A DNA stretch of 47,109 nt, taken from IMG/VR virus record IMGVR_UViG_3300005518_000020, positions 1 to 47,109 of that record. One strand, 5' to 3'. Every line of letters starts with the position of its first letter. Within the stretch, counting starts at the first letter, position 1. A program made the translations under genes and the position numbers. Origin of the DNA: a virus. The notes under the pieces are model-generated. The model did not search any database. It saw only the letters and a list, made by a program, of their open reading frames with translations, and was not told the DNA's origin. Shown piece by piece: positions 31,504-47,109 of the stretch.

Positions 31504-34293
31504 GTGAGACGAGACCTGAAGGCGTTGTTGCTGGAGAAGGTCAATCCTGTACAGGTTTACGAAGATATCTTAGGCGGGTATGAGTCCGGTCAAAACGTTC
31601 TGTGTCCTTTTCATAGCGACAGTAATCCCAGCGCGAGCGTTCGGGAGAAGGACGGTGCCTTTTATTGCCACTCCTGCGGAAAGAAGTTTTCATCCTTTGT
31701 TGGGTTCTTTGAGGCCTACTATAAGATACCATACCAGACCGCGATGCACAGGTTACACCACCGTTACATTGCACCGGTTGTGCCTTTAAGGAGAGTCTAT
31801 GGGTGGCACAAGGAACTCTGGAAAAGGAAGAAGGTCATTGAATACATCGAAGACAAGAGGGGTATCAGCGAAACCACTATCAAGTTCTTCAAGCTCGGCT
31901 GGAATGGTGAAAGAATTACTATTCCGATATTTAATGAATACGGAACCTGTCTTAACGTTCGTCTGTACCATCCCAGGCGAACACCTAAAATTATCTCTTT
32001 TCGTAAAGGTTATGGCAGCGCCCGCCTTTTCCCTATTGAGAAGTGGAGAGAAGACGAGCAGGAAACCATTCTCGTTGAAGGTGAATGGGACGCTATCCTA
32101 GCGTGGCAGATGGGCTACAACGTGTTAACTTCAACGGGCGGGGCCAACTCATGGACCCCTCAATTTTCGAAGCTCCTAAAGGGAAAGGACGTGGTGATAT
32201 TCTATGATGCTGACAAAGCTGGAAGAGAAGGGGCTAAACGAGTTGGGAAATCAATTAGCGGAGTTGGAAAAACAGTATCAATCGTTTCGGAAAAGCCGCG
32301 AGGGGTTAGGGAAACCTCTAAGGACCTTTCAGATTATGTCGTTAAAGATGGAATCAATACACAATCAATCAGCACACATCTTAGGCATTCTGAGCATGTT
32401 GGAGGTGTTAATGGTTCTAAGAGAGTCGAATCCGAAACCGAAGAAACCATCGAGGTAAAAATCCATGATGCCTCTAAAAGCAGTATATTCTATCGTCCGA
32501 TACGGACAACAGCACACGTGGCCGGAAAACGACTCACCCCATACCTTCCGCCAAAGAAAGTTCGAATCAAATGCCGTATGGATAGAGGCAAACTTTGTCA
32601 AACCTGCCACATGTTACCACACAAGGGAGTGCGAAGTTTTGATTTCAAGGCTACAGACTCAAGAGTACTTGGCCTCATCGATTCCTCCGATTTTTCAATC
32701 AAACGAGTTGCTAGAGACATTGCAAGAATACCACCAGGTTGCACAACGACTGTCGAAACTCTTAGCACCTTCAACATAGAGGAAATTACAGTCATCCCAC
32801 CCATAGATGAGGCGGGCGGGCATTACACCGCCCGTCTTGCTTACTATATAGGCCACGGTCTCCCATCCAATAGGAGCTACTCCTTTGAAGGCTACACGAT
32901 CCCGCACCCGAAGGACCAAAGTGCCACACATATTTTCACCGAAGCAATCCCCGCTCAATCAAGCCTTGAAACATATATCGCAAAACCAGGAATACTCGAA
33001 CGTCTTCGACGATTTAACCCTGGAAGTGGAAGGATTATTACACGACTTAAAGACATTGAAGAATATCTATCATCGAGCGTTACAAGAATCATTAACAGAC
33101 GCTCAATGCACCTCGCTATTGACCTTGTATTTCACTCACCCATTCGATTTGTTTTCAACGGTGAACTCGTTAAAAAAGGATGGCTTGAAGTTGCCGTTAT
33201 CGGTGACACTCGATGTGGTAAGGGATATGTTGCAACTGAGCTCGTTCGGTTCTACGGCCTTGGAGAGATTGCAACTGCTGAAAACTGTTCTTTCGCTGGC
33301 CTCGTCGGTGGAATAATGAAGTCCGGTAATAACATGTCTATCACCTGGGGTTTGATACCCCGTAATACGGGCAGACTTGTTATTATCGACGAGACCAGCG
33401 GCCTTTCCACCAGCGACATTGCACGTATGACCCGTGTCCGTAGCGAGGGCATCGCAGAGATATACAAGATTCAGTCTGAAGCAACCCAAGCCAGAACCCG
33501 TATCGTTTGGCTGTCGAACGCACGGACAGGCCGACCCGTTAACACCTACGCATATGGTGTGGAAACTGTACCGGAGCTTTTCGGAAAGTCGGAGGACGTA
33601 TCCAAGTTGGACTACGCCCTGGTTGTTTCTTCAGGAGAAGTCAAAGCGGAGGTTATCAATGCCTACAGGCACCCGTCAAAGGACGAGGAAGAAGTACCCT
33701 ACGAACGAGAGGATTTTAGGAACCTTATCATGTGGATATGGACACGTACTGAGGATCAAATCTTCTTTACTCCAGAGGCCACGGAGCTCATCCTTACTTC
33801 AGCTATGCATCTTGGGAGGAAGTACCACCCTTCAATCCCACTTATCCAGATTGAAGACGTTCGAATCAAGCTTGCTAAACTTAGTGCAGCAATTGCTGGA
33901 AGAATCTTTAGTGCTGATAAGTCGGGTACCTCCCTACTCATCACAAAAGAATGTGTCGAAGTTGCCCTGTCCTTTTTGTCCTCCATCTACGATAGGCAGC
34001 CAACTTCGTACCTCAACTACAGTGAAAATCAGTACGCCGCCACGACCATTCCGAATGAAGCGGCCGTAACGAGGTTGCTTTACGAGGCCGGTAAGTACCG
34101 TGCCAGTTTGGTACAGGGTCTCCTTGACACCAAGACCCTAGGCATTACGGACGTAGCCGACTTTATGAACTGCGACAAGTTCGTAGCCAAGGAGTTGATA
34201 GGTGAACTTGTCCGTGCAAGGTGCCTTCAGAAGGAGTACAGTTTCTACGTGAAACGCCCGGCGTTTATCAACCTGTTAAGGGGGATGGTATGA
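31504..34293 (+). CDS. Primase (CHC2-Toprim) fused to MCM-like AAA+ helicase (929 aa)
   Basis: GTG at 31504 follows GGAGG by five bases. The N-terminus is a DnaG-type primase: CHC2-like zinc site Cys34, His37, Cys55, Cys58; Toprim motifs VEGEWDA (Glu192) and FYDADKAG (Asp235, Asp237). A linker (about 260-350) leads to KCRMDRGKLCQTC (Cys357, 365, 368), like the zinc site before an MCM N-terminal fold. Walker A is GDTRCGKG (567-574), then AENCSFAGLVGG, Walker B LVIIDET (Asp629, Glu630) and sensor 1 LSNA (Asn672). SKLD (700-703) stands where MCMs have SRFD, so the arginine finger is Lys. The end (about 830-929) resembles a winged helix. Most phage primase-helicases use RecA/DnaB-type motors. It should prime and unwind at the fork. 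Confidence 0.8.
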   Translation: MRRDLKALLLEKVNPVQVYEDILGGYESGQNVLCPFHSDSNPSASVREKDGAFYCHSCGKKFSSFVGFFEAYYKIPYQTAMHRLHHRYIAPVVPLRRVYGWHKELWKRKKVIEYIEDKRGISETTIKFFKLGWNGERITIPIFNEYGTCLNVRLYHPRRTPKIISFRKGYGSARLFPIEKWREDEQETILVEGEWDAILAWQMGYNVLTSTGGANSWTPQFSKLLKGKDVVIFYDADKAGREGAKRVGKSISGVGKTVSIVSEKPRGVRETSKDLSDYVVKDGINTQSISTHLRHSEHVGGVNGSKRVESETEETIEVKIHDASKSSIFYRPIRTTAHVAGKRLTPYLPPKKVRIKCRMDRGKLCQTCHMLPHKGVRSFDFKATDSRVLGLIDSSDFSIKRVARDIARIPPGCTTTVETLSTFNIEEITVIPPIDEAGGHYTARLAYYIGHGLPSNRSYSFEGYTIPHPKDQSATHIFTEAIPAQSSLETYIAKPGILERLRRFNPGSGRIITRLKDIEEYLSSSVTRIINRRSMHLAIDLVFHSPIRFVFNGELVKKGWLEVAVIGDTRCGKGYVATELVRFYGLGEIATAENCSFAGLVGGIMKSGNNMSITWGLIPRNTGRLVIIDETSGLSTSDIARMTRVRSEGIAEIYKIQSEATQARTRIVWLSNARTGRPVNTYAYGVETVPELFGKSEDVSKLDYALVVSSGEVKAEVINAYRHPSKDEEEVPYEREDFRNLIMWIWTRTEDQIFFTPEATELILTSAMHLGRKYHPSIPLIQIEDVRIKLAKLSAAIAGRIFSADKSGTSLLITKECVEVALSFLSSIYDRQPTSYLNYSENQYAATTIPNEAAVTRLLYEAGKYRASLVQGLLDTKTLGITDVADFMNCDKFVAKELIGELVRARCLQKEYSFYVKRPAFINLLRGMV

Positions 34294-35329: not shown

Positions 35330-35981
35330 GCATGATATACAGGAGTTTTTTGCACATTGTAGGGACAAGTTCGACAGCCGTGGAAAGAAGTACAACTCCG
35401 AAGAGACTGAAATCAAGGACTACCATATCTTCGGAATTCGTTCGGTGTTCCAACATGTGTGGGGAAAGGCACTACGCCTTAAGACGCAGATGCTTTCCCA
35501 ACCGCAGTTGGTAGCGTTCCAAACCACGGACTCTGAGGGACCCGGGATAATGAACGACCTTGTAGACTTAGTGGTCTACGCGGCAATCTTCTATGCCGAG
35601 AATAGGAGACAACTCAAGGTTCTTTACCAGGAAAAGATGTTGGAGGAACTAGATGCACAACCACAACCGGCCATCCGTTTCGCTACTGTCAATAACCCCG
35701 GATCCACTGACCCTGCTGTGGAACGCGTGGTACTGGACCCGGGACAGGGGCAAAGTTCTCGTGGGGCATCAGGATCGGACCATGAATTCAACCCAGTACA
35801 CGAAGCTTGTCCAGCATGCGCTGATGTGCTTAAGGGAGCACGTCCCGATACCGGAGATGGTCCACATGACATGGGGGATATCCAACATCCCGAGGGCACT
35901 CCAGGAACAGATGGTTCGTACTCGGAAGGCGGCGTTCTTCTGCGAGACGATGAGGGTGGTGGACAAAAGCCGGTTCGCTGA
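35310..35981 (+). CDS. Nmad1/DUF1599-like protein with long out-of-frame overlap (223 aa)
   Basis: GGAGGGGTGGAAGC precedes the ATG. The first 115 residues fit the DUF1599/nucleotide-modification-associated domain 1 pattern: FGIRSVFQHVWGKALRLKTQ, then GIMNDLVDLVVYAAIFYAEN, an all-alpha MazG-like fold. From about residue 125 the protein is Gly/Asp/Pro-rich and disordered, and this part (35653-35981) overlaps the ThyX-like gene in another frame. The ThyX frame is clearly the conserved one there, so the tail is probably a by-product of the overlap rather than a functional domain. Such proteins occur near base-modification enzymes in phages. Confidence 0.65.
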   Translation: MSQSQFEHDIQEFFAHCRDKFDSRGKKYNSEETEIKDYHIFGIRSVFQHVWGKALRLKTQMLSQPQLVAFQTTDSEGPGIMNDLVDLVVYAAIFYAENRRQLKVLYQEKMLEELDAQPQPAIRFATVNNPGSTDPAVERVVLDPGQGQSSRGASGSDHEFNPVHEACPACADVLKGARPDTGDGPHDMGDIQHPEGTPGTDGSYSEGGVLLRDDEGGGQKPVR

Positions 35982-36426
35982 CAAAGAAGCCTACTTCGTC
36001 CCGGAGGGACTTGAGAAGAGCTTCACCTATCATGAGTTTATGCGGATGTCACAGAACACGTATAAACTTATGATGGGTGCCGGATTTCCACCAGAGCATG
36101 CGAGAGGTGTGCTCCCGATGCATGTTCACACCTCCCTCGTGATGGGTCTGGACCTGAGGGAGTTCACCCGCATGATGGGCAACCGTACCTGTTGGATTGC
36201 CCAGGGTTCGTACTGGCGGCCTGTAATCGATCAGTTCCAGAAGCAATTACTTATGTGGTTAGGAAGGGAGGTTTGTGACTACATCTTCAACCCGCCGTGC
36301 GAAAGGACGAACCCCCACTGCATCATGCCAGACGAAGCTGAACATCGTCTCGCCGGGGAAAGCCCATATAAGCCTTGCCCCAAGTACACTGAAGAAATTA
36401 GAAAGGTTAGTAGCCAGAAAAGGTAA
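35653..36426 (+). CDS. ThyX-like flavin-dependent thymidylate synthase homologue, divergent signature (257 aa)
   Basis: ATG 35653 has TTGGAGGAACTAG directly upstream, a strong site inside the preceding gene. The N-terminus NRPSVSLLSITPDPL matches the ThyX start. GISNIPRALQEQMVRTRKAA holds the signature region and HARGVLPMHVHTSLVMGLDL the C-terminal ThyX block. In place of RHRxxSxNxxSxR it reads RTRKAAFFCETMR (residues 89-101): first and third Arg and the last Arg are kept, His becomes Thr, the two Ser become Ala and Thr. The fold should be the same, but substrate or chemistry may differ, for example modification of another pyrimidine. Its end overlaps the polymerase gene by 152 bases. Confidence 0.75.
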   Translation: MHNHNRPSVSLLSITPDPLTLLWNAWYWTRDRGKVLVGHQDRTMNSTQYTKLVQHALMCLREHVPIPEMVHMTWGISNIPRALQEQMVRTRKAAFFCETMRVVDKSRFADKEAYFVPEGLEKSFTYHEFMRMSQNTYKLMMGAGFPPEHARGVLPMHVHTSLVMGLDLREFTRMMGNRTCWIAQGSYWRPVIDQFQKQLLMWLGREVCDYIFNPPCERTNPHCIMPDEAEHRLAGESPYKPCPKYTEEIRKVSSQKR

Positions 36427-38458
36427 GTACCTAGCGATAGACACCGAAGGTAAGGAGAGGGCCTTTGCCTATTCATTCTGCAACGAGTATGGCGACAGCG
36501 TTGCCATCCGACACGGCGACGTTGAACAGCCTTGTCTGGCTTGTAAAGGCAAAGGAAGTTGGTTACCCTCGAAGGTCACCAGAATACCACAGCTTTGGAG
36601 CGTCCAGGAGTGCGTAACTTGCAATGGTCGGGGGGTCGCCCCCGGCCATGCGTTGGCTAAATGGGTCGCCAAGCGACTTTGCGAAGACCCCTCCACCATA
36701 AAGATATTCCACAATGAGAAACATGACAGAAGAATCCTCCGACGAGAGGGAATTAGAACAGCAGGAGTCACCCACGATACAATGCTCATATCATACGCCC
36801 TTGACCCTAGACGGCCTCACGGCCTTAAGGAACTTACTCAGCTCAAAATCGGGGAGGGAGTCGGTGAACGCGACGCGGTTGTTGAATGGATTAAACGAAC
36901 TCACAAAGATATTGTCGCGGAATGCAGGAATGTTGGATACTATAGAATTTGCGGTCGAATTGAAATTGACCCTACGAAAATAATCTGGGAGGAGAAGGGC
37001 CTTAAACGCCGTAATGGATGGGAGTACGTGCCCTGGTCCGTCATGGGTCCATACGCAGAGGACGACGCCAGGAAAACCATCAAGTTGTTTTTCTACTTCC
37101 GCAAGCATGTGAAGAAGAAGCCGTATATCACTGTGTACCTTAAGGAGAAGAAGCTTCTTCCTGTCGTTGGCAAGATGGAAGATACCGGTATGCTTTGGCA
37201 TATGCCAATGGCGTATCGTCTCCTTAAGATCATTAACATGGACCGGAACAGCTTTCAGAAGGAAGCCTTTAAGCATGCGAAGAAGGAATTCAATATCCTT
37301 AGCGGTAAGCAATTGGCTAACGTTCTCTTCTCCGATTTGGGTATGGAAATTATGGAGAAGACTGCGAAGGGCAACCCGTCTCTAGACAAGGACCACTTGA
37401 TGTTATACGATCATCCACTTGCTACCGCTGTCCTTCGATTCAGGATGGCGAAGAAGATGGATGGCTACATGCGGAACTTTATTCGTTCCGCTAGGAGGGA
37501 GTCCGATGGCTGGGTCATTCATCCGAATCAATTGCAGCATGGTACTATCACCGGGCGCTTTAGTATTATCGACCCACCCTTACAGACCACCCCGGCTATT
37601 GATACTGGGCGTAGATCACATTACATCATCGACATACGTCGCTGCTTTGTCCCTCGCCGAAACCATATACTATATTTCTTTGACTACTCTCAGATCGAAA
37701 TTAAACTGTTCGCCTATTTTACTCAAGACCCCTATCTTATCGGACTTATCAAGGAAGGCCGCGACTTTCACGGAGAGGTTGCGGCTGAGGTTACTGGAGT
37801 CAAAGAAGGTACAGACGAATTTTCACACGTCCGGAAAATGACCAAGATGGTTAACTTTGGCATCATCTTCGGTGCCGGGGAGGATAAACTTGTCCAGATT
37901 ACTCACGAGGATCGCGGGAAGATTCACGAGTTCAATGAAAGATATCACGAGCGCCTTCCGAGCGTACGTGAGTTCATGGAGAAGACAATATTCGAAGCAC
38001 GAAGAAATGGATACATTGACACCGAATTTGGAAGGCGTATCCCCGTTGACGGAAACAGAGCCTACGCCGCCGTCAACTATAGGATACAAGGAACGGCAGC
38101 GGATATCCTTAAGCAGGCAGCTATCGACAGCGCAAGATATGCGGAAACATTCGGAGGAAAACTATTGCTTACTATGCATGATGAGACGATCCTTGAAATT
38201 CCAGAGGGGGCTGAACATACTACTCATATCCATAATCTTCGGACTACTCTGGAGCGGTGGGACTCCCAATTCGGACTACCTATCAATACCGACTGTGCTG
38301 TTGGCGCTGTTAGCTGGTCTGATAATGATTGTGTAAAGGTGGAAGGAGCCAAGAATTATGAGACTGCTATCAATCGATCCATCACTGAGGCACTGCGGAT
38401 ACGCGATCTTCGACGGGCCGACCCTCCAAAGCTACGGGATCTTAGAATCATCCGTTGA
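36275..38458 (+). CDS. DNA polymerase, family A, with DnaJ-like zinc insert in the exonuclease domain (727 aa)
   Basis: GTG 36275 has GGGAGGTTT before it and is the only start ahead of exonuclease motif I, so the gene overlaps the ThyX-like gene by 152 bases. Exonuclease residues: Asp56/Glu58 (LAIDTEG), HNEKHD (146-151), Tyr260/Asp264 (PYAEDDARK). Between motifs I and II are CLACKGKG (Cys87, Cys90) and CVTCNGRG (Cys113, Cys116), two CxxCxGxG motifs as in the DnaJ zinc centre, not expected in this family. Polymerase motifs: A FFDYSQIEIK (Asp470), B RKMTKMVNFGIIFG (Arg520, Lys524, Phe528, and Phe where Tyr is usual), C TMHDETILEI (His635, Asp636, Glu637). It replicates the genome. Confidence 0.9.
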   Translation: MTTSSTRRAKGRTPTASCQTKLNIVSPGKAHISLAPSTLKKLERLVARKGKYLAIDTEGKERAFAYSFCNEYGDSVAIRHGDVEQPCLACKGKGSWLPSKVTRIPQLWSVQECVTCNGRGVAPGHALAKWVAKRLCEDPSTIKIFHNEKHDRRILRREGIRTAGVTHDTMLISYALDPRRPHGLKELTQLKIGEGVGERDAVVEWIKRTHKDIVAECRNVGYYRICGRIEIDPTKIIWEEKGLKRRNGWEYVPWSVMGPYAEDDARKTIKLFFYFRKHVKKKPYITVYLKEKKLLPVVGKMEDTGMLWHMPMAYRLLKIINMDRNSFQKEAFKHAKKEFNILSGKQLANVLFSDLGMEIMEKTAKGNPSLDKDHLMLYDHPLATAVLRFRMAKKMDGYMRNFIRSARRESDGWVIHPNQLQHGTITGRFSIIDPPLQTTPAIDTGRRSHYIIDIRRCFVPRRNHILYFFDYSQIEIKLFAYFTQDPYLIGLIKEGRDFHGEVAAEVTGVKEGTDEFSHVRKMTKMVNFGIIFGAGEDKLVQITHEDRGKIHEFNERYHERLPSVREFMEKTIFEARRNGYIDTEFGRRIPVDGNRAYAAVNYRIQGTAADILKQAAIDSARYAETFGGKLLLTMHDETILEIPEGAEHTTHIHNLRTTLERWDSQFGLPINTDCAVGAVSWSDNDCVKVEGAKNYETAINRSITEALRIRDLRRADPPKLRDLRIIR

Positions 38459-46700: not shown

Positions 46701-47109
46701 TCCCTATTAAGTTCCCCTACGAACCGACGGCTTTCAATAACTCGACCGATGTGCGTATCCTTAAGCATCCCGGCAACGTGCTGAAGTCCCCTGGCGGACT
46801 GAAGGAATGGATCAATGATCTGTCCAGTCTTCTCCAGAACCTCCCCTGCACGTGCCAACTTAGATACGCTATTCATGGCACTACCTGTCTTGGATAGTGC
46901 CGTGAACCCCTTACCCATTGCCGTAACACCCTTACCAGCAATTCCAAAACCGAAGGAGGCATCTAGGAGTGCCGATATCGGACGGTCATGGGCGTAGTGC
47001 GCCATGATACTGATAGCTTCCTTGAAATCCCCGCGGTCCAGTGCCTTGGCGGATTCAATATAAGGTCGGAACTGATCCTTTAAGGCGGAACCAAGGAATT
47101 TCCCATATT
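40766..47109 (-). CDS. Giant internal virion protein, residues 231 to 2,327 (continues from 1-690)
   Basis: The frame is open to the right edge of the window and joins the 230 residues encoded at 1-690 across the circular junction (47060-47109 duplicate 1-50). An internal ATG at 47005 is not the true start. The protein is mostly long charged helices with Ala/Lys/Glu-rich stretches, a Pro-rich linker (around 43.5-43.7 kb), and near its C-terminus a Trp/aromatic-rich region (WWRALTLAISPRWILNNLVS, WVRRIVPFWNWYKHINTLAY) that could insert in a membrane. No enzyme motif is seen. Size and position before the transglycosylase suggest the main ejection protein that forms a channel for DNA through the envelope. 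Confidence 0.85.
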   Translation of the reverse strand, partial: YGKFLGSALKDQFRPYIESAKALDRGDFKEAISIMAHYAHDRPISALLDASFGFGIAGKGVTAMGKGFTALSKTGSAMNSVSKLARAGEVLEKTGQIIDPFLQSARGLQHVAGMLKDTHIGRVIESRRFVGELNRESYNQFAKNLKGSSAQFQGIFEKLKPKEKEAFAATIEGLANPVDKDGALVEAIKKYSEYWDLTHQRLSGKGLADAQEYLKRTWQPLMDATGLTMAELNSLVENIAARTPQEVGSALKVAQENAASTVLISEETVAEEAAKKAQELTPIAAVLSHADAQEIVNLGKKRSQLGVQAELAKGKGVEKLHEEMSKVDDAIAENIKRTTGKDIRYNNVAIPEGQDLYSTVKKGDIFVTEDGVEYLVRERGSMQKGNYTKIMTTAGYQAGKERVEGKILSSPGQEGDRIVLEPGTEVKGTLMRKKPKGAPPSGPVLSRDEEEFLRDYVTQAKVKTAISTSGDELDQFLQGAENRLVSPEIQTAAEHAGTESIVRMARVNPVAARRLLDLHDAIKIREDFLYRVTNRVGHAVPPIAEKNVMISELRKLKVTFKELVEQAKSETSLGPSSPIDITRRLPVETEYQTLTMEEQAARAGAYGDEVAEALAAEGEISLGKQGIHRKPKKVIMEEDLLSRDIDPDTAESIYRLSTGQVALLKPSKGKGITSEIYRGTYSHTEATGLQASIEKMAEKTAKYRYELGYRDAPADIKSSAPKWADLDADSRAIMVNATAEEIENIIKDIRAPLERGEKIRINPETSRQISNTVFRMHTLAKELDRTATFEGVVQPIYDRVAEWTDGLLNDPLVNPFYKHKITTRGGNRVTILHSKQWMKGDRQASDYQRYLTRSNPETMSAVAREKAIERTVQRLNELRLEAKTVREMAEMDPKAFQSTLGAMDVETTEDAIIAANFERDINDFMNVHSWAIGALDQMETRPGRHLTVHMREQLLAESMGRAITRPELERQYAIEQLKLQLEGTYKKINTVTGEKKPAGEPGKGIMELIKDRENVAAAARIPRNVINETTGTIDRGKFNRHIKELQNEAKLLQDPKLAKAARSEQIRREIREAQSIENPIRRAKKVAQIQAKGGTVGARTAGNVLGEITDLRRRAVAYNKAVRDLEGFRKDATRIQRRIKELEAGVELDASDVRTNWAEPDTAPPPNVTSKPAPEPSKGAPGGAERRMVEKAPARTVIDEVKRNIEESPLYKPSPEIMAIPEVSSYWKRVQNLKTDIEVSEMRADLLGKPVIKGKEIDVPRILKPTMGRDTASANAIITQLNIAIKNDPPMREALQKIAASKSYLVGPGETFNMDTVKMLLIDNGVPKPVRRQIQDLLQAYNYVRKQSPEISDLTPFVVQQLFGKDALTAADLIRIAAGKSLEGKLSRPGYYPHMWEKRHIILDARSPEGKLLLADMKNSLGATQDVKTGLIKELYKKGYTGFYDEAGEYHKIVYGQPTRNWIAGLAGGKITPSIKRPDFLRTHTNAWGYMVNDPELVSIKAAREVHRYEANMDMVKKIRDSGRAKPWNGDPDTILEGHVPFNYEGLMQFHTQNIDFLNTFKKTIQKAGYVADETFLKAIQEHIPKMQSSVTMAYKNELHQIPKELADAIYAHVSAGIVPNWIRWFDRGTDWWRALTLAISPRWILNNLVSNTLLNSMAGVMPWDYMRSKMKMFENIYPDELSTTGLYASTADEFLLGRAKPTSRTFAVFDAMYGINRKVEDFYLQAGYFKAAEKQARKYIMKDSGFRFYRSQKYLDELAGALGQMKQAGTPEMLQLQKNALEGAWEFLGNYQRLDPIERRWVRRIVPFWNWYKHINTLAYSLPVKHRYKSFVFGHLGRIGQDAVEDQFAEMGIEYKDMENFMQGRIVLPDSWRKNLQNNSDVAFASTKSFNPFADVFNLPASLIQFTQQGGNRLPGLHPLLTVGIERATGNSMFTGKPFSDPNTMDTSVGTRVYIGDDGQVVRQPGVAPPLWEHLARQTQVWDIAKDVSNFIRFNQIAAQYGTNDIIHPKFIMDPKTGQPKYPQSALVAFLKVMAANINFVEDLNAWQDKMDMELEQGESGKFNRDVASKPEFRAFAMKDLERPFNKKEEADFMRKILRKKTRIPEKLQGLK
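47060..47109. repeat. Right copy of 50-bp terminal direct repeat
   Basis: Identical to bases 1-50 and marking closure of the circle; see the left copy. One copy should be removed to obtain the 47,059-bp unique sequence. Confidence 0.95.

Follow-up and report, generated by a model that had tools for sequence, protein, structure and literature searches.

The window, which is the whole stretch of DNA that was analysed, is 47,109 bases long, and its first and last 50 bases (positions 1-50 and 47060-47109) are identical. Given these identical ends, it is probably a complete, circularly assembled phage genome. One of its genes encodes PolA, a family A DNA polymerase whose 3'-5' exonuclease domain carries an insert with two CxxCxGxG motifs (Table 1). 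The neighbours of PolA are an SNF2-type helicase, a PD-(D/E)XK nuclease, a Sak4-like protein, a primase-helicase, a nucleoside deoxyribosyltransferase, a YfbR-like HD protein, ThyX, and a weak RuvC-like match; the surroundings of PolA are thus an ordinary phage replication module. Also encoded in the window is a 929-aa protein with an N-terminal primase zinc ribbon and a Toprim domain, which shows further on a weak MCM-like match (phrog_18685, of unknown function).

Table 1. Positions in the window of PolA, its motifs, its insert and adjoining features
Feature	Positions	Strand	Basis or remark
929-aa protein	31504-34293	+	
ThyX	35653-36426		open reading frame
Bases shared by ThyX and PolA	36275-36426		152 bases, at the ThyX end
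PolA, family A DNA polymerase with 3'-5' exonuclease domain	36275-38458	+	727 aa, GTG start; Pfam and fold match
Exonuclease motif I, D56-T-E58	36440-36448	+	D56 and E58 invariant in 43 aligned sequences
Insert, about residues 81-121, between strand β3 (75-80) and helix αA (123-136)	36515-36637	+	AlphaFold2 secondary structure; without counterpart in relatives
First knuckle, C87LACKGKG	36533-36556	+	sequence
Second knuckle, C113VTCNGRG	36611-36634	+	sequence
Exonuclease motif II, N147 to D151	36713-36727	+	N147 and D151 invariant in 43 aligned sequences
PolA residues 225-246	36947-37012		low-confidence stretch of the model
Exonuclease motif III, Y260 to D264 (DEDDy type)	37052-37066	+	Y260 and D264 invariant in 43 aligned sequences
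Polymerase motif B, R520...NFGIIFG533	37832-37873	+	F532 is Phe in 21 of 43 aligned sequences (a biased fraction; see text)

The polymerase gene and its product

The GTG start of PolA lies just 3' of a GGGAGG sequence, and the reading frame contains no other start codon before exonuclease motif I. The overlap with ThyX is long for two conserved genes. The protein scores well above the Pfam cut-offs for both of its domains (DNA_pol_A, 1.8e-74, 251.4 bits against a cut-off of 34.3; DNA_pol_A_exo1, 1.6e-10, 41.5 bits against 23.6) and so belongs to the family A polymerases with an exonuclease domain. The top PDB fold match of the full-length model is the Klenow fragment (1kfs; E 7e-33).

Residue conservation was read from an alignment of 43 sequences, consisting of the window PolA and 42 other phage polymerases. 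In this alignment the exonuclease residues D56, E58, D151, Y260, and D264 and the polymerase residues D470, K524, and D636 are invariant, and R520 is nearly so. Judged by its residues, PolA is a normal phage enzyme of family A, of the DEDDy type and with a full catalytic set. F532, which we take to occupy the place of Klenow Tyr766, had been singled out in the first-pass annotation as an unusual Phe in motif B. The NFGIIFG sequence is indeed present, but its Phe is unremarkable and was dropped as a candidate peculiarity, since 21 of the 43 aligned polymerases share it, a biased fraction, because the pattern used to gather some of these sequences contains the Phe.

The AlphaFold2 model of full-length PolA (mean pLDDT 80.5, pTM 0.82) places strands at residues 52-60, 63-70, and 75-80, followed by a helix at residues 123-136. 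Between the last strand and the helix, residues 81-121 are modelled with a pLDDT below 50, and this part of the model is uninformative on the distance between the two Cys pairs. A second stretch of low confidence, residues 225-246, lies between exonuclease motifs II and III, within an insertion whose length varies across relatives.

A paired CxxCxGxG insert in the exonuclease domain

As the first-pass annotation had observed, the two motifs (DNA positions 36533-36634) are in frame with PolA and lie between exonuclease motif I (D56, E58) and motif II (N147, D151); 18 residues separate them. The pair is beyond chance: none of 200,000 shuffles of PolA contained two such motifs, and 0.1% contained one. 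On the Pfam family DnaJ_CXXCXGXG, residues 80-121 of PolA score 18.7 bits, under the cut-off of 32.7, and on the Anti-TRAP family the insert scores 17.9 bits. A score under the cut-off is usual for single hairpins, since the polymerase of phage HMO-2011, for which a CxxCxGxG pair has been published, obtains only 29.0 bits on DnaJ_CXXCXGXG.

The insert was modelled as residues 78-126 alone, in an alignment to which 41 phage hairpins with this motif were added, because alignments that combined the exonuclease domain with the hairpin put the strands wrongly. The resulting model has a mean pLDDT of 78, and the ten-residue blocks at the knuckles reach about 87-90. Its cross-strand bridges lie at model residues 9 and 45, just outside the knuckles, and at 18-19 and 34-35, inside them, a pattern that fits a hairpin with its two knuckles opposite one another; this pairing was taken from the secondary-structure string rather than from coordinates. 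Nearly all of the PDB matches found with Foldseek, at E-values of 0.05 or weaker, are DnaJ-type zinc hairpins, and they include DnaJA2 (VIA-align Z 4.2, the highest), λ Q, E. coli DnaJ (1exk), anti-TRAP (rmsd 1.6 Å over 37 residues, Z 3.7), UvrA, and BSD2. The earlier assignment of the pair to the DnaJ zinc-hairpin type is therefore borne out in the model, in which the insert fits a two-knuckle, single-zinc hairpin. However, since the motif was also the criterion for choosing the aligned hairpins, the model speaks for compatibility with the fold and is not proof of it or of zinc binding. On this modelled fold, C87, C90, C113, and C116 very probably hold one structural zinc.

The nearest phage clade, at 25-28% identity, contains a short VxPxTRxPxW loop at the place of the insert, and the same loop, which joins strand β3 to helix αA, is variable in length across bacterial PolA proteins. 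Between its two knuckles the window PolA reads KVTRIPQLWS. The resemblance of this segment to the loop of the nearest clade is suggestive of an arrangement in which the knuckles may flank an older loop. The insert and the PolA gene are alike in codon composition (GC3 0.537 versus 0.527), which gives no hint of a recent transfer.

Occurrence of the insert and its possible role

A search for polymerases with the same insert, which had been proposed from the first reading of the sequence, found none. Two profile scans of IMG/VR gave about 155 distinct-locus PolA open reading frames of at least 560 aa, 42 of them less than 80% identical to each other, and one profile scan of genome_contigs gave 80 loci, mostly bacterial PolA. 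None of these approximately 235 family A polymerases contains a CxxC pair in its exonuclease domain; none is closer to the window PolA than 32% identity. Exact 8-mers detected no close relatives of PolA in the searchable records of IMG/VR. DNA patterns that combined DTE with two CxxCxGxG motifs matched 88 IMG/VR loci, 0 of them a PolA, and a fixed-spacing pattern matched at least 120 loci, with no PolA among the matches listed, which are mostly DnaJ, Q-antiterminator-like proteins, and small zinc proteins. For the neighbouring primase no close relatives were found, its identity to named phages being 28-31%, and a search for relatives of the portal protein gave no match.

The RNase H-like fold opens with a meander of three strands, so that the end of strand β3 and the end of strand β1, the carrier of exonuclease motif I, are located on the same side of the sheet. 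The β3-αA loop would therefore leave the sheet on the side of the catalytic carboxylates, placing the finger probably at the rim of the exonuclease cleft; the side of the sheet follows here from fold topology, not from coordinates. The reading that we favour, and regard as reasonably probable, is that the β3-αA loop of PolA, at the rim of this cleft, has received one DnaJ-type zinc hairpin with four Cys ligands. The four Cys residues and one zinc would create a rigid finger in the exonuclease domain, for which the likeliest role would be contact with a replication partner or with the single-stranded end of the primer. Such a contact could in turn tune how the primer moves to the proofreading site, a proposal about function that we hold tentatively.

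The main rival to a contact role is that the hairpin is only a staple, which would stabilise a long surface loop of variable length and bind neither DNA nor a partner. The β3-αA loop tolerates insertions, given its variation among bacterial PolA proteins and the VxPxTRxP segment of the nearest phage clade, and the first zinc finger of the nidovirus exonuclease ExoN is chiefly structural (PMC7968707). On the other hand, all of the sampled relatives manage without the hairpin, and the stability of the domain does not generally depend on it; we consider the staple rather unlikely, although it deserves more weight than the explanations that follow.

Paired CxxCxGxG motifs have already been published for the PolA of HMO-2011-type marine phages, in papers that place this partial DnaJ domain between the exonuclease domain and the polymerase domain (PMC9038755, PMC6918029, PMC8528129). 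Thus, the idea that the motif is unusual for family A polymerases stands for the exonuclease domain, where about 235 others are without it, but not for the family as a whole. Members of this type include Puniceispirillum phage HMO-2011, roseophages CRP-1/2/3 and CRP-207, and pelagiphage HTVC033P; the sequences compared were those of HMO-2011, CRP-207, HTVC033P, and CRP-3. Like the window PolA, these are phage family A polymerases with exactly two CxxCxGxG motifs at nearly equal spacing (17 residues versus 18), which might suggest that the two inserts are the same one, shared through a common ancestor or through movement within one gene lineage. However, the HMO-2011-type hairpin aligns to the thumb, at the segment that matches residues 362-367 of the window PolA, and is located between the SPEQLSxVIYS and GFSTDK segments, whereas that of the window lies inside the exonuclease domain; in the alignment, the exonuclease domain of the HMO-2011-type enzymes contains no Cys pair. 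The "partial DnaJ domain" of the aligned polymerases of this type (L340, L257, L341, and L342) falls in the thumb, close to the segment before the STDK motif. In a tree built from the polymerase domain, a split with 97/97 support separates the window PolA, which sits on a long branch (1.45), from the HMO-2011-type enzymes; neither insert is present in the phage clade closest to the window PolA. A shared insert is consequently very improbable. Given the different site and the different branch, two gains are the simplest reading, and the two hairpins were probably acquired separately.

It is likewise highly improbable that the Cys pairs constitute a redox switch or a metal-free, decaying relic. 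The homologues at hand, at 32% identity or less, are without the insert, so that conservation of the Cys residues lends no support to a zinc site; however, all four Cys and the four Gly of the motifs are intact, which is unexpected for a relic, and the modelled hairpin fold is compatible with the insert. The least probable explanation, that the insert acts like DnaJ and recruits DnaK, from the chaperone machinery of the host, draws on the resemblance of the insert to the DnaJ cysteine-rich domain, but it was set aside, since PolA has no match to a J domain, has two of the four motifs, and scores under the Pfam cut-off, and since the same hairpin is present in the non-chaperones UvrA, λ Q, and anti-TRAP.

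Related hairpins in phage exonucleases and in known zinc modules

One of the pattern matches is a phage RNase_T (DnaQ-like) exonuclease that also has a paired CxxCxGxG, L463 (1501-2211, plus strand, on the same contig as L087). As in the window PolA, the pair lies between exonuclease motifs I and II; in contrast to PolA, L463 is a separate protein of the DEDDh family, and its hairpin, a stretch of about 31 residues, occupies an apparent β2-β3 turn and has a shorter loop. The sole relative of L463 found, L464 (1456-2085, plus strand), is 61% identical to it and aligns on both sides of the hairpin, but lacks exactly that stretch. This clean presence and absence indicates that phage exonucleases gain or lose such hairpins as whole units, and the comparison of the two sequences supports a graftable hairpin cassette. 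Since L463 and L464 are otherwise similar, with and without the hairpin, the pair makes the effect of the hairpin directly testable.

The sites compared are the exonuclease loop of PolA in the window, the thumb of PolA in the HMO-2011-type phages, and the turn of the DnaQ-like exonuclease L463; the hairpin is also found in stand-alone proteins of about 60-105 aa. In the favoured reading, the HMO-2011-type thumb and the DnaQ-like exonuclease each acquired a hairpin of this kind in a separate event, and the three cases together suggest at least three additions of one small zinc hairpin to phage replication enzymes, at different sites. A wider generalisation, that phages repeatedly graft this hairpin onto proofreading and replication enzymes, in various surface loops, and so re-tune the handling of the primer strand or of a partner, is possible, but we consider it somewhat doubtful. 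Several phage contigs (L378, L385, L392, L395, L366, L460, and others) have short open frames, of about 57-105 aa, with one DnaJ-type hairpin each. Small frames of this kind are a possible source of such inserts.

The arrangement of the insert, CxxCxGxG-loop-CxxCxGxG, is that of the DnaJ zinc site, λ Q, anti-TRAP, the C-terminal zinc finger of UvrA, and BSD2. The targets of three of these, λ Q, UvrA, and anti-TRAP, are nucleic acids or proteins that bind them. Unlike the hairpin of the window PolA, none of the five lies within a polymerase or an exonuclease, and the cysteine-rich domain of DnaJ contains four motifs and two zinc sites, whereas the insert contains two motifs. What is new here is the position of the hairpin, in the exonuclease domain of PolA; the hairpin type and its presence in phage PolA were already known.

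A zinc module inside a DEDD exonuclease domain is otherwise found in the ExoN proteins of nidoviruses and arenaviruses (PMC7968707). Those fingers, however, are of the CCCH/C and HCHC types and belong to DEDDh enzymes of RNA viruses, while the window PolA carries a Cys4 CxxCxGxG hairpin in a DEDDy domain and so is not a zinc-finger ExoN of the nidovirus type. A 2021 survey concluded that the DnaQ-like exonucleases of cells and DNA phages, unlike those of nidoviruses, are without zinc fingers in the exonuclease domain (PMC7968707). The window PolA and L463 are predicted to be counterexamples to this rule.
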